49,015 bases of DNA from Tissierellia bacterium (GTDB taxonomy: Bacteria; Bacillota; Clostridia; Peptostreptococcales; Acidaminobacteraceae): contig JAAYOV010000078.1 in NCBI GenBank assembly GCA_012520095.1, forward strand, positions 1-49,015. Reading direction: 5' to 3'. The notes beneath the pieces are model-generated. The model saw only the letters and a list, made by a program, of their open reading frames with translations. It did not search any database and was not told the origin of the DNA. Position numbers and translations under genes: made by a program. Positions within the stretch are counted from its first letter, which is position 1; the number at the start of each line of letters is the position of its first letter. Shown piece after piece: positions 3,477-41,770 of the stretch.

Positions 3477-4728
3477 ACACCCACCTCCCACTTACCATCG
3501 TGGCTATTACTTTTCCTCTCAACTTTACACCGTTTAAAGGTGTGTTCTTGCCCTTTGAAACGAGCTCTTCCCTCTGAAGAATCCACTCTTCATCCGGATC
3601 CAGAAGAACCAGGTCGGCAGGATAACCCTTTTCAATTTTTCCTTCTTTTAGACCCGCTACCTCAGCCGGTTTTTCACTCATAAGCCTCAGAAGTTTCGGG
3701 AGCTTCAATTCGCCCGTTTTAACCAAATATGTGTTCCCGAGCGCAAAGGCAAGCTCCAGCCCCGTGAAACCAAAGGAGGCCTCCCCCATAGGTAACCGCT
3801 TGCTCTCTTCATCATGCGGAGCGTGATCCGTTGCGATGATGTCAATCACTCCACTTCTCAGCCCTTCAATCAGAGCCGTGCGATCCTCTTGAGTTCGAAT
3901 GGGGGGATTGACCTTGGCAAGAGTTCCCGCTTTGACAAGAATGTCTTCCGTCAAAGAAAAATGATGTGGACATACTTCTGCAGAGACGTTGAGGCCCTTC
4001 CTCTTTGCCTCTCTGATGAGATCGACGGATTCTTTTGTGCTGAGGTGGCAAAAATGAAGCTTTGCTCCCGGATACCGCTCGAAAAGAGCGAGATCCCTTT
4101 CAATCATCTTCCACTCCGACTCGGACGGGATACCATCGACACAAAAAGCTTCCGCATATTTCCCTCGATGGACAGAGCCGGTACTAAAATAGGACTTATC
4201 TTCTTCATGAACGGCTAGAAACCCACCCAGCGCACCGATGCGCTCGAGAGCTTCGATCATCTTATCTTCTGTTGCTATCGGCGCTCCGTCATCCGAGAAA
4301 AAGCGACATCCTTCTTGCGCCATTTCTTCTATATCTGAAAAAACTTCGCCGGCAATCGAACGTGTAACACTTCCATACAGGGTGACAGGGACAACAGAAG
4401 CCTTCGACAACTCTCGAATCATGAGATAATGCTCTTTTGAATCAGGGGAAGGAGATGTGTTGGGCATAGCAAATACATGCGTAAATCCTCCTACGGCAGC
4501 CGCTCTCCCCTCCGTTCGAAAGGTTCCTTTATGCTCTGCGCCGGGCTCACGCATATGTACATGCAAATCGATGAATCCCGGAGCGAGGACAAGGCCGTTT
4601 GCGTCATAGACATCGTCACCGGAAAGTTCCCTGCCCCAGCATTCAATATGACCGTCAGAAATTTTCACATCTGCAAAAATGAGATCTTCCACTTCCGGAA
4701 GCAGTATTCTCGCATTTTTAATGAGCAT
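3460..4728 (-). CDS. pyrC: Dihydroorotase (class I)
   Basis: Closes carbamoyl-aspartate to dihydroorotate. The amidohydrolase zinc ligands are all present: HVH (H56, H58), D147 region (SDDG), H174 (VHEE), H228 (CHLS) and D301 (ATDHAPH). The 422-residue length and FIDLHVHMREPG motif identify class I, and the full set of ligands argues for an active enzyme rather than an inactive PyrX-type partner. It is the first gene of the minus-strand pyr operon, divergent from pyrBI across 192 bp. The ATG at 4728 follows AGGAGG. I could not find a convincing promoter on this strand. Confidence 0.95.
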   Translation of the reverse strand: MLIKNARILLPEVEDLIFADVKISDGHIECWGRELSGDDVYDANGLVLAPGFIDLHVHMREPGAEHKGTFRTEGRAAAVGGFTHVFAMPNTSPSPDSKEHYLMIRELSKASVVPVTLYGSVTRSIAGEVFSDIEEMAQEGCRFFSDDGAPIATEDKMIEALERIGALGGFLAVHEEDKSYFSTGSVHRGKYAEAFCVDGIPSESEWKMIERDLALFERYPGAKLHFCHLSTKESVDLIREAKRKGLNVSAEVCPHHFSLTEDILVKAGTLAKVNPPIRTQEDRTALIEGLRSGVIDIIATDHAPHDEESKRLPMGEASFGFTGLELAFALGNTYLVKTGELKLPKLLRLMSEKPAEVAGLKEGKIEKGYPADLVLLDPDEEWILQREELVSKGKNTPLNGVKLRGKVIATMVSGRWVYESTR

Positions 4729-4776
4729 GAGATCCTCCTATGTAGTATTAGTCTATCAGAGCCTCGTCGCTTCGTC

Positions 4777-4805
4777 TTGTATTTTTTTGTTTACTCTGTT
4801 ATTCT
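4777..4805 (+). promoter_or_regulatory. Candidate pyrBI promoter
   Basis: TTGTAT (4777-4782), a 17-bp spacer and TATTCT (4800-4805). The match is modest (three and four of six). The predicted start near 4812 would put the following PyrR-like hairpin (4817) almost at the 5' end of the transcript, which supports the assignment. Confidence 0.4.
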
Positions 4806-4816
4806 TTTAGCGGAAA

Positions 4817-4882
4817 CCTTTAACCTGGACCCGGAGAGTGCAGAAAGGATTCGTACATTTTCTGCGCGGCAGATTTTTTTTT
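4817..4882 (+). promoter_or_regulatory. PyrR-type transcription attenuator upstream of pyrBI
   Basis: Three mutually exclusive RNA structures are visible. (1) Binding-loop candidate: lower stem CCTTT 4817-4821 with AAAGG 4844-4848, a 5' bulge AAC, upper stem CTGGAC 4825-4830 with GTGCAG 4838-4843 (one G-G mismatch), and loop CCGGAGA containing the PyrR hexaloop pattern CNGNGA. (2) Antiterminator: GCAGAAA 4840-4846 with TTTCTGC 4859-4865. (3) Terminator: TCTGC 4861-4865, loop GCG, GCAGA 4869-4873, then nine T (4874-4882). In Bacillus, UMP-bound PyrR stabilises the first structure and so favours termination. No pyrR gene is in the window. Confidence 0.7.
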
Positions 4883-4920
4883 GCCCTTTAACCTTACTCT
4901 GTGAAGTAGAAAGGAAATTT

Positions 4921-5844
4921 ATGCGCCACCTAATCCAACCCGAAGACCTGAGTAATCAGGAGTTTATGGACTTGATTGAAACGGCATCCCATATCCTTGC
5001 TCATCCCGAGTTGTATAAAGAACGAGCAAAAGGAAAAATACTTGCAAGCCTATTCTTTGAGCCCTCCACACGAACAAAGTTTAGTTTCGACGCGGCGATG
5101 CTTCGCTTAGGCGGAGAAGTCATCGGTTTTTCAGACAGTCAGAGCACCTCTTCACAAAAAGGAGAAAGTCTGGCTGATACGATCCGCATTATGAGCGGAT
5201 TTGCCGACATCATCGCCATGCGTCATCCCTTAGAAGGGGCGAGTCTACTTGCTTCCAAGACTTCAAGAGTTCCGGTCATCAACGGCGGTGACGGCGGCCA
5301 TCAGCATCCGACTCAAGCCTTGACGGATCTCTTCACCATCTATCATTACAAAAAGAAGCTCAGCGGACACAAGATCGCCCTGATCGGCGATCTCAGGTAT
5401 GGCCGCACAGTCCACTCACTTATCAAAACGCTGGCGCGCTTTAAGGTGGATAGCTTCTATCTCGTTTCTCCCGAGGAACTCTCCATGCCCCGACACATAC
5501 TCGATTGGATGCAGGCCAATTATCCCGACATCCATATTTATGTCCTCCATGACATGGAACCCGCCCTCAGGGACTGTGATATTTTGTATATGACTCGCAT
5601 CCAAAAAGAGCGTTTCTTTAATGAGGCAGACTATCTCAAACTCAAAAACTCATATCTCCTCGACGCCGAAAAAATGCAGTTAGCAAAAAAGGACGCCATC
5701 TTGATGCACCCCCTGCCTAGGGTCAATGAGATTTCGATCGATCTCGACAATGACCCGCGATCGGTCTATTTTGAACAGGCAGCCATGGGAATGTATATTC
5801 GCATGGCACTCATACTAAAACTTTTGGAGGAGTGTGATGATTAA
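4921..5844 (+). CDS. pyrB: Aspartate carbamoyltransferase, catalytic chain
   Basis: Condenses carbamoyl phosphate with aspartate, the committed step of pyrimidine synthesis. The carbamoyl-phosphate motif FEPSTRT is at about residues 46-52, with HPTQALTD in the middle and the aspartate-site motif HPLPRVNEI near the C-terminus. The 307-residue length is typical. The reading frame stays open upstream, but ATG 4921 is the start because it aligns with family N-termini, follows the AGAAAGGAAAT site, and lies beyond the attenuator. It overlaps pyrI by 8 nt, so a PyrB6PyrI6-type holoenzyme is likely. Confidence 0.95.
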   Translation: MRHLIQPEDLSNQEFMDLIETASHILAHPELYKERAKGKILASLFFEPSTRTKFSFDAAMLRLGGEVIGFSDSQSTSSQKGESLADTIRIMSGFADIIAMRHPLEGASLLASKTSRVPVINGGDGGHQHPTQALTDLFTIYHYKKKLSGHKIALIGDLRYGRTVHSLIKTLARFKVDSFYLVSPEELSMPRHILDWMQANYPDIHIYVLHDMEPALRDCDILYMTRIQKERFFNEADYLKLKNSYLLDAEKMQLAKKDAILMHPLPRVNEISIDLDNDPRSVYFEQAAMGMYIRMALILKLLEECDD

Positions 5845-6268
5845 TGTCTCAGGAATCGAAAACGGTATCGTGATCGATCATATTCCCGCAGGAAAAGGCT
5901 GGAAGATATTCCAAAAACTCAATCTCAATACTATCGAAACACCGGTCGTCCTCTTGATGGGCGTACGTTCCACTCGCATGGGACAAAAGGACATTATTAA
6001 AATCGAGGGGCGCTGGGATGTCGATCTCAAATTGCTCGCTCTCATCGACCCGGACATCACCACCTCCCGCATCGTCGACGGAAAAGTCGTTCTTAAGAAA
6101 TCTATGGAAGTGCCGCAAAAAGTAAAAGGTCTTTTTGAGTGCGCCAACCCCCGCTGTGTGAGCCATATCGATCAGCAGGCAATACCGGAATTCACACTCG
6201 TGCGCAGCAACGGCGCTCTCCACTACCAATGCAATTACTGTGACGAGGTCACAAGATACAGTTTATAA
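5837..6268 (+). CDS. pyrI: Aspartate carbamoyltransferase, regulatory chain
   Basis: Allosteric subunit that binds nucleotide effectors and links PyrB trimers. At 143 residues it has the N-terminal nucleotide-binding domain and a C-terminal zinc domain with Cys102, 107, 132 and 135 (C-x4-C ... C-x2-C), exactly the family pattern. I choose ATG 5837 (6 nt after GGAGG 5826-5830) over GTG 5834. PyrI is absent from Bacillus but found in clostridia and proteobacteria. Its presence implies feedback control of the enzyme in addition to the leader attenuator. Confidence 0.95.
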   Translation: MINVSGIENGIVIDHIPAGKGWKIFQKLNLNTIETPVVLLMGVRSTRMGQKDIIKIEGRWDVDLKLLALIDPDITTSRIVDGKVVLKKSMEVPQKVKGLFECANPRCVSHIDQQAIPEFTLVRSNGALHYQCNYCDEVTRYSL

Positions 6269-8173: not shown

Positions 8174-8794
8174 ATGAAAAGTATCATCATCATCGAAGAC
8201 CATAGAGTGCTCAGAGATTCCCTCAGTCAAGTTCTCGAGGGTAAAGGGGATTTTTGTGTCATTGAGCAAAGTTCGCGCGCTTCTGATGCTCTTCATCTCT
8301 GCAGGCGATATCAACCCGACATTTTACTCATGGACATCATTACTGAAGACGGTGACGGTCTCGAAGAGGCGATCCGCATCAAAGAAATCATGCCTCAACA
8401 GCGCATTTATCTGCTAAGCGGCCTAAAGGAAGCCGATCGAGTGGAGAGAGCAAAGGAAGCCGGCATAGACGGCTACCTGTTGAAAGATCTGCCCGTCGCA
8501 CAATTACTTGCCAAGCTCAGGCAACATGATACCGTTGTCTTCCCCATTCTGGAAAACACGCCTGACGAGCCCCCATTTGATCTGACACCGACAGAATTGG
8601 ATATCCTTGAACTTCTTGCCATGGGCTACAATGTGGAATCTGTCGCCGAAAAACTCAGCTATTCTCCACACACAATAAAAAAATATATCAGCCGCGCCTT
8701 GGTAAAAAGCGGCTGTTCCAATCGAGCGATGCTTCTGGCTCAACTGACAAAATCCGGTCATATCAATCCATTGAAAAATCACCTGAACGAGTAA
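8174..8794 (+). CDS. NarL/FixJ-family response regulator
   Basis: 206 residues: a receiver domain with acidic pocket E8/D9, phospho-acceptor Asp54 (LLMDII), Ser82 and Lys104 (LLKD), then a LuxR-type helix-turn-helix (about 137-195, LTPTELDILELLAMG ... SPHTIKKYISRAL). It is a DNA-binding transcription factor activated by phosphorylation. The start is ATG 8174, 5 nt after AAGGAG. It faces the histidine kinase gene and their 3' ends overlap by 32 bp (8763-8794), so the two are very likely cognate despite opposite orientation. Target genes are unknown. Confidence 0.92.
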   Translation: MKSIIIIEDHRVLRDSLSQVLEGKGDFCVIEQSSRASDALHLCRRYQPDILLMDIITEDGDGLEEAIRIKEIMPQQRIYLLSGLKEADRVERAKEAGIDGYLLKDLPVAQLLAKLRQHDTVVFPILENTPDEPPFDLTPTELDILELLAMGYNVESVAEKLSYSPHTIKKYISRALVKSGCSNRAMLLAQLTKSGHINPLKNHLNE

Positions 8795-10193
8795 ATGTGA
8801 GGCGAATGAGAAATCCCTCTTCCGGCAGGATCGCAAATGTTCCGCCGATGCGCTGGATTTTCTCCCGCATTCCCCGTATGCCCATCCCCTCTTCATAGTC
8901 AAGTTTATACGCCATTCCGTTATTGACGATCTCTATCATGATAAAATTCCCCTCTTCCTTCATCGCCATTTCCACATAATTGGCTCCTCCATGGCGCACC
9001 GCGTTAGTTGCAGCTTCCCGAAGGATGAGAAAGAGCGAATGCTTTTGAAGGAAACTGAGATCGGCTTTTCCGCTTATGACGAGTTCGACTCCGATACCGG
9101 CAAACGCGGTGATCAAATTGGAAAACGCCTCCTCTTCCTGCATCAGAGCCCGCCTTTCTAAACGGGTGAGCAGCGAATGGATCATGTTCACAAGCTCCTT
9201 CTTTCCGAGGATGCTTTCTTGTTTGGCGGCAAGTGTTTCCACCGCTATACCCACAATAGATAGCTCCTGCGCCAAGACATCGTGAATATGGCGCGCCATA
9301 TTGGCCGCTTCCTGAGCCTGCATCGACTTGTCGATAGAGGTGAGCATCTCCTCTACGATCTCGTTGACAGCGGTGAGAAGTTCCGAGTTCTTCTGCGTCT
9401 CAGAGAGAAGCCTTTGATGCTCTGTCACTTCGGAAAAACTCCAGATATTTGTCTTTTCTCCAAACATCAGTGTCTCTTGGCGTTCCATCTGATACTGCCT
9501 TGCGTGAATATCGGTAATGAGTCCCTCCGACTCCGAATCGTCTTTTTGCCAGTCTCGACCGCGCAATTTCAGTTCCGGCGTCGTAGAAAAGATTTCTTCC
9601 ATTTTTGCATTGGCAAATAATTCCGTCCCACTGTCGGAAACGACCCAAATGCCAAAAGGAGAGAGATGAAGCGCCTGAACCATGCTGTAATCCGTCTGAC
9701 GCTCTCTAAGATACAAGCTCGATAGAATCAGATAATATGAAAAACCAAACAGCCACAAAAAAGCCTGTCCCGTCATCATAGCGGCATATCCTCGAGCTGT
9801 GGCCAGTGATTGAAACGGAGGCAGCAACAACACCATCATCGCCACTCTTGCAAAGAGCATCATCGTCGTAAAATCCCATAAAACGCCTTTTTCTGCCGAT
9901 CGGGCGTAAAACATTAAAAGATGCGTAAGGATAGGAAAAACCAGCCATCCTGTCCAATAGGTTCTCCACGGGGGGACATGTCCTGCCTCAATATACAGAT
10001 AAGATAAGAGCAACTGAATGCTAAAGATAAACGCGGTTAAAGCATTTGCGACAAAATAACATTTCCATATTAAGTTGAACCGCCCTTGCCATCTGAAGCC
10101 CATGAGAAATATTGTAAAAATACTCATAGGCAGGCAGAGGAGATAAATAAATAACCAGAGAAGATAGAGGCCGCCGCCCAGTGGTTCAGCCAT
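8763..10193 (-). CDS. Membrane sensor histidine kinase (NarX/DesK-type)
   Basis: 476 residues from ATG 10193, chosen because it follows GGAGG whereas the upstream in-frame start does not. About five hydrophobic segments span residues 8-165. A PAS-like region (about 172-260) follows, then a HisKA_3 dimerisation domain with the acceptor His304 (HIHDVLAQ). The ATPase domain has an N box (EAATNAVRHG, N397), NNG (424-426) and a G box (EGMGIRGM). All catalytic elements are intact, so it should autophosphorylate and signal to the LuxR-type regulator encoded opposite. It overlaps the companion sensor gene by 8 nt. The ligand is unknown. Confidence 0.9.
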   Translation of the reverse strand: MAEPLGGGLYLLWLFIYLLCLPMSIFTIFLMGFRWQGRFNLIWKCYFVANALTAFIFSIQLLLSYLYIEAGHVPPWRTYWTGWLVFPILTHLLMFYARSAEKGVLWDFTTMMLFARVAMMVLLLPPFQSLATARGYAAMMTGQAFLWLFGFSYYLILSSLYLRERQTDYSMVQALHLSPFGIWVVSDSGTELFANAKMEEIFSTTPELKLRGRDWQKDDSESEGLITDIHARQYQMERQETLMFGEKTNIWSFSEVTEHQRLLSETQKNSELLTAVNEIVEEMLTSIDKSMQAQEAANMARHIHDVLAQELSIVGIAVETLAAKQESILGKKELVNMIHSLLTRLERRALMQEEEAFSNLITAFAGIGVELVISGKADLSFLQKHSLFLILREAATNAVRHGGANYVEMAMKEEGNFIMIEIVNNGMAYKLDYEEGMGIRGMREKIQRIGGTFAILPEEGFLIRLTFTRSGDFSMD

Positions 10194-11748
10194 GATAGCC
10201 CTCCAGTCTGACCACAAGGCTTACCTCTTCTTCATCCTCTTTAATACTCCGGTCATATGAGGTAAAACACTCAAGTCTCTCTATCAACTCAGTTGCCTGA
10301 TCACAGCTTAAAGTCAAGGAAAGCTTTCCATCTTTTTGCATCACCCCGTAAACCCAAAGATCCAGCCCGGAAGTTTCTTTGGAAAGGCGAAGGAAAAAAT
10401 GGAGAGTGGAGAGCGCCAAGGAATACTCCATCGCTCCCTCAAAGGAAAACTCAAGATGAGAGTGATGATTGGACATTTGCAGAATTTCTTCACACCATTG
10501 AGCGATGACCGAAGGATCGAGCTCCGTATTTTGAAACTCGGCGACAGCCAAGTTGCTTCGCCTCCTGATGTAAGCACACAGGAGTTTTATTTCTTCTACT
10601 TGCGACCGGGTGATGTTTTCTTCATCCAGTTCTGCTATTCTCGATTCCAACTCTCTTAGCCATTTCGAAATAGATTCTTCAATGCTCGACAAAATACGAA
10701 GTCTCGTTTGAAACTGTTCCAACTCCCGATTAAGAGACCCTCTTTGCAAAAGAAGGTTTTTTTTCATGTGTAATTCTTCCAACTGTTGATCGCGCTGTCT
10801 CAAGACATTCATCCTATCTTTGATGTCTTCAATAAAAACAAGGTAGCCTCCGTGAAGATCATAACTTCTCCATCGATACTCTTCGCCAATCAACTGCCAT
10901 CGATTCCCGGAAGCCCTTTTGATTTGCTCTTCCTGCAATTCTTCGAGAACATGCAAGTTTTTCTTGGCCCCCGAGCTCAAATAGCTCAATTTACCGGAGT
11001 CTCCGAGAATAAAAGCCACTCTATCCATGCTTTTGAATATTAAAGCGCTCAGCGTATTTGTCACCATTGGAGCCGTTCGAAAGGAAGTCTCCCAAAGAAA
11101 AAGAAACGAAAACAAAAACAACGCATCAAAGAGCTGCCGTATGTGAATGTGCTCCCATTGCATTCTCGCAATCATCAGGGCCGTCATCACAATCGGGATA
11201 AGGAAAGAGTAAATTTGCCTCGACCGTTTTCTCATACGCGTCATATTCAAAATATTGATCGAGCCGGCAAACAGCTTGCCGGTGTTTATCAGGACAATGA
11301 ATTGAATAACAACATCCGAAAACAAACGATTGTCAATAAAACTATTAAAGAATCCATAACGGGAAGAAATCGTCAAAACAACTAGAATCGCGAAATCAAA
11401 AAGAAGCAGAAATGCCACAATAGTGCGAAACCACTCAGATGTCACATTCATCTGGATACTCATTAAAAACCACGAAGAAAACAGAAGATGAAACATAGAG
11501 ATGCGTATGAGCATGAATATATTCAATGTATTAAGTTCAAAACCGATCATCGTGATCACTGACGTAAGGAGCCAGGCAATCATGGCAACGGTGCTCAAGC
11601 CCATAAAAAACCGCTCGCTGCGGCTTTGCATTCGAATCAAAAGGGAGCCCGTCCACACAGAAACCAGACATAGGGCGACGATCATGCCAAAGCCATATAT
11701 CTGCAGAGACAGTATATCCTGTTGCCAAAATGACAGGTGAGCAATCAT
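10186..11748 (-). CDS. 7TM sensor-like protein with degenerate kinase region
   Basis: 520 residues. Seven or eight hydrophobic segments (about 10-240) resemble the N-terminal 7TM region of some clostridial histidine kinases. A PAS-like stretch (about 250-320) and a long coiled coil (about 325-395) follow. The C-terminal 120 residues sit where HisKA and ATPase domains would be, but I see no H-box histidine in a HisKA context, no N box and no G box; instead there is the motif IKLLCAYIRRRSNLAV. It is probably a non-catalytic co-sensor of the kinase encoded immediately downstream. ATG 11748 follows GGGAG by 5 nt. Confidence 0.75.
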   Translation of the reverse strand: MIAHLSFWQQDILSLQIYGFGMIVALCLVSVWTGSLLIRMQSRSERFFMGLSTVAMIAWLLTSVITMIGFELNTLNIFMLIRISMFHLLFSSWFLMSIQMNVTSEWFRTIVAFLLLFDFAILVVLTISSRYGFFNSFIDNRLFSDVVIQFIVLINTGKLFAGSINILNMTRMRKRSRQIYSFLIPIVMTALMIARMQWEHIHIRQLFDALFLFSFLFLWETSFRTAPMVTNTLSALIFKSMDRVAFILGDSGKLSYLSSGAKKNLHVLEELQEEQIKRASGNRWQLIGEEYRWRSYDLHGGYLVFIEDIKDRMNVLRQRDQQLEELHMKKNLLLQRGSLNRELEQFQTRLRILSSIEESISKWLRELESRIAELDEENITRSQVEEIKLLCAYIRRRSNLAVAEFQNTELDPSVIAQWCEEILQMSNHHSHLEFSFEGAMEYSLALSTLHFFLRLSKETSGLDLWVYGVMQKDGKLSLTLSCDQATELIERLECFTSYDRSIKEDEEEVSLVVRLEGYHG

Positions 11749-34237: not shown

Positions 34238-34651
34238 CTATTTTTTCGGTCGTTTCGCTCCGTACTTGCTTCTCGCCTGACGACGATTGGCTACTCCTGC
34301 GGTGTCGAGAACGCCGCGAATAACATGATAACGCACACCGGGAATATCGCGAACGCGGCCCCCGCGGATCAGCACAACACTGTGCTCCTGCAGATTATGG
34401 CCTTCTCCGGGGATATAAGCAGTGACTTCCATTCCATTGGTCAATCGAACCCTGGCTACTTTGCGCAGAGCTGAATTCGGCTTCTTCGGGGTCACCGTCT
34501 TAACAGAGGTGCAGACGCCTCTTTTTTGCGGCGCATTCTGTGTTGTCGCCTTATTTCTAAGGGTGTTCAGATTTCTCTGCAGTGCCGGTGCATCACTCTT
34601 GGCCTTTTTACTGTCACGGCTTTTTCTGACGAGTTGATTAATGGTTGGCAT
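34238..34651 (-). CDS. rpsL: 30S ribosomal protein S12
   Basis: 137 residues ([53 protein letters not shown]). The streptomycin-site lysines in PKKPNS are the sensitive type (Lys). The insert [24 protein letters not shown] is the longer form seen in some clostridia. First gene of the str operon, preceded by a long structured leader. Confidence 0.98.
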
Positions 34652-34958: not shown

Positions 34959-35978
34959 TTAGCGAAGCTTGATGCCGAGCGTTTCCTCCATCATCCGGAC
35001 TTTTCCCTTGCCGTCAGGCATCTGTGTATACACTTGATAGAGCTCAACCGACGGAATCGAATTGCCCTCTATGATCACAGGTCCATTTTCCGTAATGGCC
35101 ACGTCCCAGCCTACACAGCCGCAGTCGGATATCTTCAAGGCTGCCTTTGTAACCATTTCTTTGAGTTCAGGAATGAACGGGACTTGAAAGCCGACGAAAG
35201 GAAATCCGGTGACAGGATGTTTCTCATACGTTTTCATCGTCGGTAAATTGGCAAACATCGGATTGACGATGAGCCCGTCTTCATTCAAGATAGTCCAAAT
35301 CCCCCCGAGACTCGTGTTATCCATATAGTTGTCCGACACAGAGCAACGAAGAACCATATAGACGACATGCACATTGCCATCACGGTCTACATTTGTCCCG
35401 GTGCGAATCGTGTTGATGGATTTCGGAGCTAATTTATACATTTCAGGGTGCTGCTTGACCCCTTCTTCGATCGTATAGCCACCGCTCTTCATCAACCGAT
35501 CGTACAGCGCCTTGACATCTTTGATGTCTTTTGTCGCCACTCGCTCCATATTATGGCCACCGTGATCAAAAGGAGTTTTCAGGAACAGCACTTCCCGGTT
35601 CTGCACCATGTTCTCAAAGTCTTCAAAGGAATCCCAGCGCAAGTCGATGGCTTCTCTGCCGATAAACTCGGAAAAGAACTTATTGAATATTCCCTTGTCT
35701 TCGAGAAGATCCTCAGCCGCCGGGTTGACGCACTGATCTCTGATGATCTCGTTATCTATATATTCAGATAGAAAACTCCTTCGATATTCTCTGTCTTTAT
35801 TGAGGTGAAAACCGAACGTAGGATAATTCAACCACGTATACCCTTCTTCTTTGTAGAGGGTGTACATGTCGAAAAAGAGATCGAGATATCCTCTGCCGGA
35901 TTCCTTGTGCATCTGGTGCAGAAGCGGCAGCATCTCTTTCCAATTGACTTTTAGCGCTCTTTTAATTAATTTGATCAT
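34959..35978 (-). CDS. ATP-grasp family protein (ATPgrasp_ST-like)
   Basis: 339 residues, no signal peptide or membrane segment. The C-terminal half resembles the 'sugar-transfer associated' ATP-grasp family: LFLKTPFDHGGHNMERV for the first ATP loop, APKSINTIRTGT, and the metal-binding segment GWDVAITENGPVIIEGNSIPSVELYQ with the typical E-x-N. Such folds join a carboxylate to an amine through an acyl phosphate. It is the third gene of the MurT-GatD-like cassette, 9 nt after the GatD-like gene and behind AAGGAG, so its substrate is probably related to the same cell-wall or peptide product. The exact reaction is unknown. Confidence 0.82.
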   Translation of the reverse strand: MIKLIKRALKVNWKEMLPLLHQMHKESGRGYLDLFFDMYTLYKEEGYTWLNYPTFGFHLNKDREYRRSFLSEYIDNEIIRDQCVNPAAEDLLEDKGIFNKFFSEFIGREAIDLRWDSFEDFENMVQNREVLFLKTPFDHGGHNMERVATKDIKDVKALYDRLMKSGGYTIEEGVKQHPEMYKLAPKSINTIRTGTNVDRDGNVHVVYMVLRCSVSDNYMDNTSLGGIWTILNEDGLIVNPMFANLPTMKTYEKHPVTGFPFVGFQVPFIPELKEMVTKAALKISDCGCVGWDVAITENGPVIIEGNSIPSVELYQVYTQMPDGKGKVRMMEETLGIKLR

Positions 35979-35987
35979 CTCTACTCC

Positions 35988-36698
35988 TTACGTGTAGCTG
36001 TGCGGGTCTTCATACTCAACTACTCGAATCTCATATGCCTCAAGAAGGGCTTCTCTGTGAGGGATCTCCACCGGTATATTCCACTGCTGAAACAGGCGTT
36101 CGGTAAATAGCGGATTCATAATGAGAAGAGGACCGGTGACATAAGTGGCGACAAAATTCTTATAGTGAATGCCCTCTCCCTCGAGCTCCTTATTCATCCC
36201 GAAGCCGCGAGTCGTCTGAAAGAGGTAGGGAAAGTTTCGGGGTTCTTTCGGGAAGTTCTGCGTAAACTGCGTCTTGACCCCCGTCACCTTGATATCTTCA
36301 TACAAACCGACATACAGCTCTGTGAGTCTGTTCATCATCTGCCTTCTCGCCTGCATAGAAAACAGGTCGAGTCCTGCAATCGCCGTCCCGTCTTCATTGA
36401 GAATGGAAGTGCCAAATATCTCCATGGCGTTTCCAGTCAAAAGAAAACGGTCTCCCTTCTCTATCCGATCTCTTACAGCCTCTCTATGCGGAAGGATATT
36501 GTCGATGATCTTTTCCTGCGCGCGTTCAGAGGAAGGCCCCATAAAAACAAGATCCACGCTTCCGTCAAGAAAAGTCGGCTTTTGTAAAAGCTGAGTCATG
36601 ACAAATTCAGCCTTCGGGAACATTTTTTGAAGAAAACGCTGGTGACCGATCTCACCAAACTGATTCGAAAGTTCAGGATAAAGAAATTCTATTTTCAT
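35988..36698 (-). CDS. GatD-like glutamine amidotransferase homologue lacking catalytic residues
   Basis: 236 residues. The start IEFLYPELSNQFGEIGH and the C-terminal block GFGMNKELEGEG..HYKNFVATYVTGPLLIMNP align well with GatD of lipid II isoglutaminyl synthase. In characterised GatD the nucleophile cysteine is in a C-G-G-Y/F-Q motif and the histidine in TYLHGPLL. Here these places read T88-G89-N90-A91-M92-E93 and TYV-T188-GPLL, so both Cys and His appear to be lost, and no other Cys is present. It overlaps the MurT-like gene by 4 nt. It is likely a structural or regulatory partner rather than a glutaminase. Confidence 0.8.
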   Translation of the reverse strand: MKIEFLYPELSNQFGEIGHQRFLQKMFPKAEFVMTQLLQKPTFLDGSVDLVFMGPSSERAQEKIIDNILPHREAVRDRIEKGDRFLLTGNAMEIFGTSILNEDGTAIAGLDLFSMQARRQMMNRLTELYVGLYEDIKVTGVKTQFTQNFPKEPRNFPYLFQTTRGFGMNKELEGEGIHYKNFVATYVTGPLLIMNPLFTERLFQQWNIPVEIPHREALLEAYEIRVVEYEDPHSYT

Positions 36699-38074
36699 CT
36701 GTCAGCCTCCCCGGCCAATCTTGCAACTTCATTTCGAATGGCCATCATCTCTTCGACATTGTCATTGTCATTGAGAATAAAGACAGAGTCCACGTTCTCA
36801 TAGTCAACGGCATGGGCAATGCTCGGCGAAAACCCTTCAAAAGCGAATATTTTTTCCGGATCAATTCCTTCCAATAAAAGCCTTACCTTGATATCTTTAT
36901 AGCGAGGGCCCAATGTAATAAACTGACAAATATTGTCTTGTTTTAGAAAGTGAAAGTCTATGTCATAGAGCCAGGCCATATTTTCCTGATTTTTTCCTCT
37001 GTCACGAAAATCGGTATTGCCGAAAATCAGCGCGATCCGTCCTTTTTGCTTTCGGATATAATCGAAGCTCCTAGAGGAAGCGATAGGATTGATCGCCTTG
37101 GCCATCAACATGATGACATCTATTTCTCCACACCGCTCTTCATAATATCTGCTTTCGACGACCTTGATCTTGCCATACGCCTCGCGAATGTCTTCCATAT
37201 CAAAGCCTCCGTCATGCAGCAGAGCAACGGTAGAGACGAGATTGTACAAGTCGACAATGTTCTTGCTTATGATCGGAAATGTCCAATCCTTTTCTTCATG
37301 ACGCAGCGTACACTCTCCTTTTTCTCTGTCCACCTCAGTTATCGTATAATCGCGCAATGGATTCGTATAACCGCAATTTTCACAGGTAAAGCGGCCCAGA
37401 TGGTTGTAACGCACAAAATCCTTTCGAAGAGGATGATCGCATTTCGGACAGTTTTCGATGTCGACGACATTGCTGTCGAGTACTTGCTCTTCCCATTCGA
37501 GCGGTTCGATTCCATACGTGATATGGCGATTTCCGGGTTTTAATCGGCATGAAATCATGTCGTCGGCATTGGATACCATCACCGTTTCATCGGGAATCGA
37601 TGAGTTCATGATATCGAATATATAATCGACATGCGCATTTCTCTTATAAGAATCCCGGAAGAGATTGGTGACGAGAAGATATTTCGGAGTCATCTGTTCA
37701 TAGACGCGGATGGAGCTCCTCTCATCAACTTCGATGACGCCATATTCAAACGGCATCTTTCCTAAAATATTGGAAAATTGAATAAATGTACTGATGATCC
37801 CTTCGACAGTATTCGAGCCGTAGCTGTTATGGACATATTTAATTCGACGATCTTGTAAAAAATCGCCCAGGAAGTTTGCAGATGTAGTCTTTCCGTTCGT
37901 GCCTGTAACCGCATAAAGATTGTGCGGTTTTTCAATCCCTTTTAAAATCTTCGGATATAGAGTATAGGCAATGTCTCCCGGGAAGAACGTCGCATTGCGT
38001 CCGATCAATGTCATGGCGCGACGTATAAGTTTTGCCAGCCACAATACAGCATAGAATCGCATAGGTCTGGTCAT
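36695..38074 (-). CDS. MurT-like Mur ligase (DUF1727 family)
   Basis: 459 residues. The Mur ligase P-loop TGTNGKTT is at 57-64, EVDERS at 115-120, and a four-cysteine zinc ribbon (C209, C212, C231, C234) is inserted in the central domain as in MurT. The C-terminal DUF1727-like domain has AKAINPIASSRSFDYI and GKNQENMAWLYDIDF. In MurT the matching segment DGRDVSW carries the Asp that completes the GatD triad; my alignment puts Asn365 there. ATP activation of a glutamate carboxylate, as in MurT, is plausible, but the nitrogen donor must differ. ATG 38074 follows AAAGGA. Confidence 0.85.
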   Translation of the reverse strand: MTRPMRFYAVLWLAKLIRRAMTLIGRNATFFPGDIAYTLYPKILKGIEKPHNLYAVTGTNGKTTSANFLGDFLQDRRIKYVHNSYGSNTVEGIISTFIQFSNILGKMPFEYGVIEVDERSSIRVYEQMTPKYLLVTNLFRDSYKRNAHVDYIFDIMNSSIPDETVMVSNADDMISCRLKPGNRHITYGIEPLEWEEQVLDSNVVDIENCPKCDHPLRKDFVRYNHLGRFTCENCGYTNPLRDYTITEVDREKGECTLRHEEKDWTFPIISKNIVDLYNLVSTVALLHDGGFDMEDIREAYGKIKVVESRYYEERCGEIDVIMLMAKAINPIASSRSFDYIRKQKGRIALIFGNTDFRDRGKNQENMAWLYDIDFHFLKQDNICQFITLGPRYKDIKVRLLLEGIDPEKIFAFEGFSPSIAHAVDYENVDSVFILNDNDNVEEMMAIRNEVARLAGEADR

Positions 38075-38290: not shown

Positions 38291-41200
38291 TTATTCGTTG
38301 AGGGAGATATCCATGTAGCGATTGATCCCCGTCCCGGCGGGAATGAGTTTTCCGATGATCACGTTCTCCTTCAGACCGAGCAGATTGTCGACTTTGCCTC
38401 GAATGGCTGCATCTGTCAATACGCGAGTCGTCTCTTGGAAGGAGGCCGCTGAAAGGAAAGAATCCGTGGAGAGCGAGGCTTTGGTAATCCCGAGGACAAT
38501 GCGATCTCCTTTTGCCGGTTCTTTGCCTTGTTCTTCGAGCTTTCGATTGACTTTAACAAAGTGCATATAGTTCTCATTGTTGCCCGGAATAAAGTCTGAA
38601 TCTCCGCTGTCAAGTATGCGCACTTTTGAAAGCATCTGCTTGGCGATAATTTCAATGTGCTTGTCATTGATGGCAACACCCTGATCACGGTAGACTTTCT
38701 GCACCTCTTTGACAATGTACGCCTCAACGCCTTGGACACCGGTAATGCTAAGGATCTCAGCAGGATAAAGTGACCCGTCCGTCAACTGGTCTCCTTTTTC
38801 AACTCGATCTCCTGAAGCAAATCGCAGACGACTTCCAAACGGAACCTGTAGGGTTTCGCTCTCTCCGTCAGCGGACTCAATGGTAATTTCCTTTTTTCGC
38901 CCGTCATCTTTGACCGTCACAATTCCGCTCAGGCGCGTGATAAGAGCCAACCCCTTCGGTTTTCTCGCCTCGAAAACTTCCTCAACACGAGGCAGACCTT
39001 GCGTAATATCGCTGACGGCGACACCGCCGGAGTGGAACGTTCTCATTGTCAGCTGCGTGCCGGGTTCACCGATAGACTGAGCGGCGATAATTCCAACCGC
39101 TTCGCCGACATTGACATCGCGATTATCAGCAAGATTGATCCCGTAACATTTGGCACACACACCTCGCTCCGTCTCACATGTCAGCACGCTTCGTACCGAT
39201 ACCTTTTCAATTCCCGCTGCGACAATGGCGCGGGCAATATCTCCTGTGATGCACTGGTCCTTGCGGCAGAGAATCTTCCCGGTCTTCGTCTTGATGACTT
39301 GTGTGGGAAAGCGGCCGACAATGCGCTCTTCAAGCTCTTCGACTATTTCTTTGCCTTCCGTGATGCGTCCGAGCACAATCCCCTCTGTCGTTCCACAGTC
39401 TTCTTCCCGCACGATCACATCTTGCGCCACATCGACCAGTCTTCTGGTCAGATAACCTGAGTCGGCTGTTCGAAGCGCTGTATCGGCGCTTCCTTTTCGG
39501 GCGCCTGTCGTGGAGATAAAGTAATCTAAAATTGTCAGACCTTCACGGAACCCAACCGTGATAGGCACTTCAACCGTCTTTCCTGTAGCCGACGCCATGT
39601 TTCCGCGCATTCCGCAGATCTGTGAAATTTGGTTTGCATTTCCGCGAGCGCCTGACTGGCTCATAATGTGGAGATTGTTCATGTCGTCAAGGGCTTCCAT
39701 AACGGCGTCTTGTACCTTGTCACGCGTATCTTTCCATATACCGATGACCGACTCGTGACGCTCTTCATCACTGAGGTATCCCTTTCGATACATATCAACA
39801 TATTCAAGCTCTTTGGCTTTTGCTTCTCGAATGAGATCCCATTTCACTTCAGGGATAACCATATCCGCCATGCTGATCGTCACGCCTGCCTGTGTAGAGA
39901 AGCGGAACCCCATGTCTTTAATGTGGTCCAGCATATGAGCGGTCACGGTGTTTCCTTTCTGCTCATACACTCTTGCAATGATCTCTTCCAAGACTTTGCG
40001 ACCGCAGACTTTGTCTACTTCCAGCGAGTAGGGATCTTCTTTCCGATCGACAAATCCGATATCTTGGGGAATCTCGGCATTGAAAATAAAGCGGCCTACC
40101 GTACTTTCAACGACTTTTCCGGTATCGTTTTTCACTTTATCGTTAAAGACTCGCACTTTGACACGAGCATGCAAATCTATCTGCTTGTTTTCAAATGCCA
40201 TGATCATCTCATTGTAATCTTTGAAGATCTTGCCCTCCCCTTTTGCTCCCGCACGCTCTGTCGTCAGATAGTAGCAACCGAGAACCATATCCTGGGTCGG
40301 TGTTGTGATGGGCTTTCCGTCTTTGGGCGCCAAAATATTATTGACCGACAGCATGAGATAGCGAGCTTCCGCCTGCGCTTCAATGCTCAAGGGAACATGT
40401 ACCGCCATCTGGTCTCCGTCAAAGTCGGCATTGTAGGCAGTACACACCAGTGGGTGCAGCATAATCGCCTTGCCTTCAACGAGGACCGGCTCAAACGCCT
40501 GGATGCCAAGTCGGTGAAGCGTCGGAGCGCGGTTTAACAAAACAGGATGCTCTTTGATCACTTCTTCGACGATGTCCCATACTTCCGGACGCTCTTTTTC
40601 CACCATCCGCTTGGCCGTTTTAATATTATGCGCCAGCTCTTTGCTCACGAGTTTTCTCATGACAAAGGGTTTAAAGAGTTCCAATGCCATTTTCTTGGGA
40701 ATGCCGCACTGATGAAAGCGCAGTTCAGGTCCGACCACGATAACGGAACGGCCTGAATAGTCCACGCGCTTGCCCAACAAGTTTTGTCGAAAACGGCCCT
40801 GTTTGCCCTTTAACATGTCTGAAAGAGATTTCAAAGGACGCTTGCCGGGCCCTGTGACAGGGCGGCCTCTTCTTCCATTGTCAATCAGCGCATCGACGGA
40901 TTCCTGAAGCATGCGCTTTTCATTCTTAATAATAATCTCGGGCGCCTTTAGATCAAGGAGGCGTTTGAGTCGATTGTTTCGGTTGATAACGCGGCGATAG
41001 AGGTCATTGAGGTCACTTGCCGCAAAACGGCCTCCGTCGAGCTGCACCATAGGGCGAAGATCCGGAGGAATGACGGGAATCGCATCCAAAATCATCCATT
41101 CCGGACGATTCCCACTCTGGCGGAAGCTCTCTACGACATCAAGGCGTCGAATCGCTTTTGAACGTCTTTGACCGGTGCTGGTCTCAATGGTCTCCCTAAG

Positions 41201-41770
41201 CTCTTCTGCGAGCTCATCGAGATCCATCTCCATAAGAAGCTCTTTGATCGCTTCTGCACCCATTTCGGCACGGAAACGCTGACCATACAGCTCTCGGTTT
41301 TCCGTATATTCCGCTTCATTGAGAATCTCAAATTTTGTAAGGGTCGTATCTCCTTCTTCCAACACAATATAGCTGGCAAAGTAGAGAACCTTTTCAAGAT
41401 TTCTGGGAGAGAGATTCAGTAAAATACCCATCTTTGAAGGGATGCCCCTGAAAAACCATATGTGCGAGACAGGCGCTGACAACTCAATATGGCCCATTCG
41501 CTCACGGCGCACACTTGCGCGCGTCACTTCAACGCCACATTTGTCGCAGATGACCCCTTTAAATCGGATGCGTTTATATTTGCCACAATGGCATTCCCAA
41601 TCTTTTGTCGGTCCGAAGATCTTTTCACAGAAAAGCCCGTCCCGTTCAGGTTTGAGTGTTCGATAGTTGATGGTCTCGGGTTTTTTTACTTCTCCATAAG
41701 ACCATTCCCGAATCTGCTCAGCAGAAGCAAGACCGATGCGAATAGAATCAAAACTGTTAAATTCTAACAA
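38291..41770 (-). CDS. rpoC: RNA polymerase beta' subunit
   Basis: 1159 residues. The catalytic [12 protein letters not shown] metal motif, the N-terminal zinc finger (CHCGKYK ... CDKCGVEV) and the second zinc site ([13 protein letters not shown]) are present. It starts with TTG at 41770, 6 nt after GGGAGGG, in exact agreement with family N-termini ([16 protein letters not shown]). It follows rpoB by 12 nt. No large insertions are seen. Confidence 0.98.

Follow-up and report, generated by a model that had tools for sequence, protein, structure and literature searches.

What does a MurT/GatD-type enzyme do when its glutaminase subunit has lost all of the residues that serve for hydrolysis of glutamine? 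This question is raised by three consecutive genes on the reverse strand of a 49,015-nucleotide stretch of DNA (the window, meaning that stretch at its whole length) from a Tissierellia bacterium of the family Acidaminobacteraceae (assembly GCA_012520095.1, contig JAAYOV010000078.1). A murT-like gene for a Mur-ligase-type subunit of 459 amino acids (aa) (36695-38074) overlaps by 4 nucleotides a gatD-like gene (35988-36698) for a 236-aa subunit, which has the class I glutamine amidotransferase fold without the catalytic Cys and His, and the gene for a 339-aa ATP-grasp ligase of the ATPgrasp_ST family (34959-35978) follows after a gap of 9 nucleotides. This coupling of a MurT/GatD-like pair to an ATP-grasp gene had been described in the original prediction, and open reading frames (ORFs), Pfam matches and predicted folds agree with it; the observation is confirmed, and its interpretation is partly supported. 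The answer favoured here is that the pair would ligate a non-glutamine amine to the α-carboxyl group of D-Glu in a peptidoglycan precursor, with a non-hydrolytic GatD-like subunit, a reading whose chances we put at about even.

At the level of the superfamily, the pair belongs with MurT/GatD, having both folds, adjacent genes, a Mur P-loop and a Cys4 zinc ribbon. The MurT-like protein matches Pfam MurT_C at 66.4 bits (cut-off 25) and Mur_ligase_M at 32.3, and the GatD-like protein matches GATase_3 at 21.7 bits, under its cut-off of 27. In phmmer searches against the PDB, the former finds MurT (7q8e, E=2.4e-44) and the latter GatD (5n9m, E=1.8e-13). The MurT-like model (predicted local distance difference test, pLDDT, 88.8) matches solved MurT structures with Z of 28.7-33.2 (best 9sqj, 33.2) and MurC with 26, and the best PDB match of the GatD-like model (AlphaFold2, AF2; pLDDT 90.7) is S. 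aureus GatD (SaGatD; 6h5e) with Z of 24.6, the next family reaching 15. The nearest NCBIfam models are also MurT and GatD, though the scores are far under the equivalog cut-offs (188.7/800 and 149.3/800 for MurT, 56.6/450 and 49.4/400 for GatD). Together with Cys94, His189, Asp349 of MurT and the oxyanion glycines, these cut-offs make up five defining features of the glutamine-dependent enzyme that are absent here, and the pair is best classed, from its sequence, as MurT/GatD-like on the ligase side and outside the glutamine-dependent family. The ATP-grasp protein falls well within its own family (PF14397, 139.4 bits against a gathering cut-off of 31.4). Only one MurT_C match was found in the window's genome (assembly about 97% complete), and therefore no second, canonical murT-gatD pair, for which the original prediction had advised a search, was found for the usual job.

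The triad positions, in S. aureus numbering, were read by aligning the pair, with phmmer, to the S. aureus and S. pneumoniae proteins of solved structure. Gly89 of the GatD-like protein aligns with the nucleophile Cys94, within the sequence TGNAMEIFG (residues 88-96; 36411-36437, reverse strand, as for all sites below) that replaces the nucleophile elbow; Thr188 (36135-36137) stands for the catalytic His189, and Asn365 of the MurT-like protein (36980-36982) for Asp349 of MurT, all as originally predicted. In the oxyanion hole, the first Gly of the GGG motif is kept and the second and third are replaced (MGPSSE). On the MurT side, the conserved FRDQLDRYGE loop is rewritten to FRDSYKRNAH (residues 139-148; 37631-37660), and the KNP loop is longer by two residues. 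The loop, as RDQLDRYGE, has been proposed as an ammonia channel and gate (PMC6085368). The Mur P-loop GTNGKTT (residues 58-64; 37883-37903) and the zinc ribbon (C209, C212, C231 and C234 within residues 209-234; 37373-37450) are intact, in line with the prediction. An intact triad elsewhere had been named beforehand as the finding that would overturn this picture; the GatD-like protein contains no Cys at all, so that a relocated Cys triad is ruled out. As for the third triad residue, its assignment to MurT agrees with the S. aureus D349N mutant, which is inactive (PMC6113224), whereas in S. pneumoniae the acid has been assigned to GatD itself (Asp32) and MurT D355A lowers activity without abolishing it (PMC6085368). 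The MurT Asp is therefore the weakest leg of the argument.

The same form recurs in many genomes. A scan of named genomes found the gatD-like gene at 21 loci in Lachnospiraceae, Oscillospiraceae and other Clostridia metagenome-assembled genomes (MAGs), with 36-46% identity, all with TGNAMEIF for the Cys elbow and a hydrophobic residue or Thr for the His, a uniformity that is partly selected since the scan was seeded with short query peptides including TGNAMEIF. Profile searches free of this bias recovered the same form with a clean score gap: 42 GatD-like proteins scored 263-345 bits, and the other 56 scored 81-122. None of the 42 has the Cys or the His: the Cys94 position is Gly in 39, Ser in two and Asn in one, and the His189 position is Leu, Ile, Val or Thr in all. 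Gly95 is replaced by Asn and Gln98 by Glu or Asp throughout, and the former elbow carries a T-G-N-A-x-E motif across the family. The Asp349 position of the MurT-like proteins is Asn, Ile, Thr or Gln in 37/37 and never Asp, which is present in 48/49 of the comparison set. The gate loop RDQLDRYGE has become RDSxxRNAH (Gln135 to Ser in 37/37, Tyr/Phe139 to Asn and Glu141 to His in 36/37 each), while the P-loop, the Mg-binding Glu, Gly-x-Asn and the zinc ribbon are conserved on the ligase side. By a quick tree method, the MurT-like proteins are one side of a branch apart from canonical MurT (Shimodaira-Hasegawa-like approximate likelihood ratio test, SH-aLRT, 100). Random decay is ruled out by this conservation and by the tree. 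A coherent and widespread clade with newly conserved residues, in which both subunits have changed together, speaks for a new function under selection, and the prediction of a shift in function rather than decay is supported as far as sequences can tell. Searches of the open-licence literature turned up no account of a GatD family without the Cys.

Some of these replacements have been made in the laboratory. GatD C94G or C94S abolishes glutamine-dependent activity (PMC3266927; PMC6113224), and SaGatD C94G retains ammonia-dependent amidation at pH 8.5, for which GatD is always required (PMC3266927). The window proteins naturally carry Cys-to-Gly and Asp-to-Asn changes matching C94G and D349N. 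Because the ATP site and the acceptor-carboxylate Asn are kept, formation of an acyl phosphate on the D-Glu carboxylate would be retained; because the nucleophile, the His and the oxyanion glycines are missing and the gate is changed, glutamine is very unlikely as the donor. The remaining donors would be free ammonia, as with C94G, or another amine. In this connection, MurT alone has been reported to stand in for MurE in vitro by adding Lys, with data not shown there (PMC3266927).

The gene neighbourhood points to another amine. The order murT-gatD-ATP-grasp is found in the window's genome and in four others (G010, G005, G006 and G007), and also in second copies of the pair in Lachnospiraceae (read in G440, G441, G442, G446 and G458, and by position in G444), while the ATP-grasp gene precedes the pair in G324 and at L019 and precedes the murT-like gene in G439. 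This adjacency in two gene orders argues for a working link, and the co-occurrence of the three genes, which the original prediction had proposed to look for, is borne out. At seven Lachnospiraceae loci (L004, L005, L006, L008, L009, L010 and L022; the label 'Bacteroides' on L004 is probably wrong for its contig), the gene after gatD encodes EctB, 2,4-diaminobutyrate transaminase, whose copy at L005 scores 569.9 against an equivalog cut-off of 552.2. EctB is carried by 2/5 Lachnospiraceae genomes with the GatD-like protein and 2/145 without it (Fisher p 0.005, ancestry ignored), and the neighbours examined included neither ectA nor ectC. The two subunits are fused in two Lachnospiraceae genomes, G459 and G594, and in G594 EctB comes next after the fused gene. 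The fusion loci lie at L142:7716-9869 (reverse strand) and L145:6582-8819 (forward strand, the one followed by EctB), each encoding a single protein of 717 or 745 aa. Cell-wall genes also adjoin some copies: murC lies directly downstream in two unrelated genomes (L003 and L206), ftsEX-pcsB-ctpA upstream at L144 and ftsW upstream near L018. Three genomes from the window's family (L096, L097 and L098) carry second or third ATPgrasp_ST genes inside the same cluster.

Since EctB, the ATP-grasp link and the rewritten gate all favour an amine other than ammonia, the following mechanism is proposed. Together, the MurT-like and GatD-like proteins would make up a MurT-type heterodimer with ATP-dependent ligase activity. 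Acting on a precursor of peptidoglycan, most likely lipid I or II, it would activate the α-carboxyl group of D-Glu as an acyl phosphate and then join this group to a diamino acid, an amino acid or another amine not derived from glutamine. In the Lachnospiraceae relatives, the amine would most likely be 2,4-diaminobutyrate. The GatD-like subunit would be an obligate structural partner without glutamine hydrolysis, perhaps with a pocket admitting or positioning the amine, and the ATP-grasp ligase of the window's organism probably contributes to this branch, either by providing the amine or by extending it. It is a more tentative and somewhat less probable step to suppose that a diamine or diamino acid in particular is loaded on D-Glu, giving a branched or cationic peptidoglycan, and that the GatD-like protein binds this amine.

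Several observations weigh against a substitute amine. Loss of the Cys demands no other amine by itself, as the staphylococcal C94G enzyme works on free ammonia. Many loci have neither EctB nor an ATP-grasp gene alongside, and two Lachnospiraceae genomes, as counted above, carry EctB without the GatD-like protein. The cassette of the window's own clade is linked to no gene for amine synthesis, and a search of the window's genome at E 1e-60 found no EctB, other amine enzymes not having been searched for. A single origin of the linked ATP-grasp genes is unsupported, their copies falling in several ATP-grasp clades, so that they may have been adopted repeatedly. Nor is EctB a universal partner, being limited to a subset of Lachnospiraceae. 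The different amine of the original prediction stands as a sound inference with EctB adjacent in Lachnospiraceae, while in the window's organism the ATP-grasp enzyme is a candidate supplier of it, and the GatD-like protein may or may not be a mere scaffold.

The strongest competitor, unlikely on balance though still a serious one, is an isoglutaminyl synthase using ammonia only, which would make D-isoglutamine from free ammonia, plentiful in the gut, much as human CPS1 has lost its glutaminase, and would keep the GatD-like protein as a structural relic for folding. It draws on the requirement of the C94G enzyme for GatD and on its activity with ammonia at pH 8.5, and on the retained GatD fold, with the ammonia-dependent human CPS1 among the weaker structural matches of the model (Z about 11); the named host MAGs are, moreover, mostly from gut. 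It leaves unexplained the conserved TGNAxE, the coordinated rewriting of the gate loop and the linkages to EctB and the ATP-grasp gene, and canonical MurT/GatD does not use ammonia at pH 7.5 (PMC3266927). The EctB linkage also suits a bridge like that of group B peptidoglycan, in which a single amino acid such as Gly or diaminobutyrate on D-Glu starts an interpeptide bridge and the ATP-grasp enzyme adds the next residue. ATP-grasp ligases do add bridge residues, as D-Asp ligase does, and unusual MurE motifs are present in several of these genomes. In the window's genome MurE (L231) has GHNR where diaminopimelate (DAP)-type MurE has DNPR, and in the window's genus (L231, L230 and L232) GHNR or GHTR replaces the DNPR of meso-DAP enzymes, a hint that the third residue is unusual; the window's genome does have a DAP-epimerase match. 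G594 (L145, L233) has EDPG instead of DNPR and no DAP-epimerase match, and its wall is possibly diaminobutyrate-based. However, among Lachnospiraceae in which the pair is linked to EctB, most retain DAP epimerase and a MurE with DNPR, leaving an ordinary DAP cross-link available, and as markers of wall type the two give mixed results across genomes. Such a bridge seems rather improbable.

It is quite improbable that the cassette has no role in peptidoglycan and that the ligase and the ATP-grasp enzyme make a capsule or a peptide polymer instead. The name of the ATPgrasp_ST family refers to sugar-transfer neighbourhoods, and its unlinked members can adjoin polysaccharide and capsule genes (L110), but several copies of the pair lie among peptidoglycan and division genes, and the acceptor-carboxylate and ATP-binding residues are kept in the MurT-like protein. 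The cyanophycin-like polymer raised in the original prediction has to be given up: the cyanophycin synthetase model TIGR02068 scores 12.1 against 850 bits, the ATP-grasp and Mur domains are on separate genes rather than fused, the MurT-like protein still has the short N-terminus of MurT and its zinc ribbon, and neighbours of the relatives include cell-wall genes. Least credible of all is a catalytically idle pair, regulatory or decaying, for while three catalytic residues are lost, the reading frames and the ATP site are intact, conservation across orders is strong and two fusions of the genes exist.

The family is present in gut Clostridia of several orders. In the window's family, the GatD-like protein is found in 6/41 genomes and the canonical form in two, and in a sample of its order it is common in a second family. 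Among 150 Lachnospiraceae, five have it, 27 have another, weaker-scoring GatD and none has both; at least one genome (G454) has a canonical-looking pair plus the MurT-like protein. The same-genus genome G010 has two copies of the pair (C81 and C86; L024 and L031), with the ATP-grasp gene at only one. Among 197 genomes from the order to which an Oscillospiraceae MAG belongs, six copies of the main type were found along with a second, more divergent type. This GatD also lacks the Cys and His (TGN[AS]xE ... GTH[LI][IT]GP, about 92-142 bits), has its own MurT and is common in Oscillospirales genomes (L162-L178, L182-L185). The divergent type in G107, from the window's class, has an intermediate loop, RDQLTRNGH.

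In the window, the cassette sits between rpoC (38291-41770) and ribosomal and elongation genes, namely a 137-aa ORF read as rpsL (34238-34651), then rpsG and fusA, named from sequence. Elsewhere in it, two neighbouring ORFs that overlap each other (8763-10217 and 10186-11748, reverse strand; 484 and 520 aa) have no Pfam match. The gene of the aspartate carbamoyltransferase catalytic chain (4477-5844, forward strand) is a 455-aa ORF with an N-terminus longer than usual; it overlaps the PyrI regulatory chain (5834-6268, forward strand), and its start, the true one being perhaps later, overlaps an amidohydrolase ORF on the opposite strand.

Amidation of the D-Glu α-carboxyl group influences cross-linking, sensitivity to lysozyme and β-lactams and the reading of peptidoglycan by NOD receptors. 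A clade widespread in gut Clostridia that keeps the ligase and gives up glutamine would predict a wall chemistry not yet described, and, if the diamine reading is right, an undescribed branched or cationic peptidoglycan in many uncultured gut Clostridia, bacteria whose hosts meet them daily. The pair is a defined and testable candidate for the enzyme class that places amines or diamino acids on D-Glu, which to our knowledge has no assigned gene. Annotation as MurT/GatD, and isoglutamine deduced from it, can mislead in these lineages.

The pair shares with MurT/GatD, the lipid II isoglutaminyl synthase of S. aureus, S. pneumoniae and S. pyogenes, a two-subunit operon in the order murT-gatD, the folds, the ATP site and the zinc ribbon, but lacks the Cys, the His and the MurT Asp, has its oxyanion glycines and proposed gate loop rewritten, and is linked to an ATP-grasp gene or EctB. 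An archaeal MurT relative also occurs without a GatD glutaminase, in organisms with an ATP-grasp gene in their pseudomurein clusters, though there GatD is missing altogether (PMC11915815). In Negativicutes, cadaverine or putrescine is attached to the α-carboxyl group of D-Glu (PMC10628300). This is the chemistry predicted here, an amine other than ammonia on that carboxyl group, and serves as a chemical precedent only. A Negativicutes origin of the window, with the pair as the cadaverine/putrescine transferase, was considered and dropped: the homologues lie in Lachnospiraceae and Oscillospiraceae MAGs, and G107, a genome of the window's class, shares its matched place with G619 in the order of an Oscillospiraceae MAG, which puts the window in that class. 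The window's class includes Oscillospirales genomes. We know of no enzyme for the polyamine modification. Group B peptidoglycan, found in Actinomycetota and a few Bacillota, has bridges of diamino acids linked to D-Glu, such as diaminobutyrate in Clavibacter, and the MurT-like pair would resemble it, as judged from genes, in placing a diamino acid on the same carboxyl group. Human CPS1, an ammonia-dependent carbamoyl phosphate synthetase, has kept its glutaminase domain as structure after loss of the Cys; a dead glutaminase is thus common to both systems, although CPS1 is a different synthetase and has retained ammonia as its donor.

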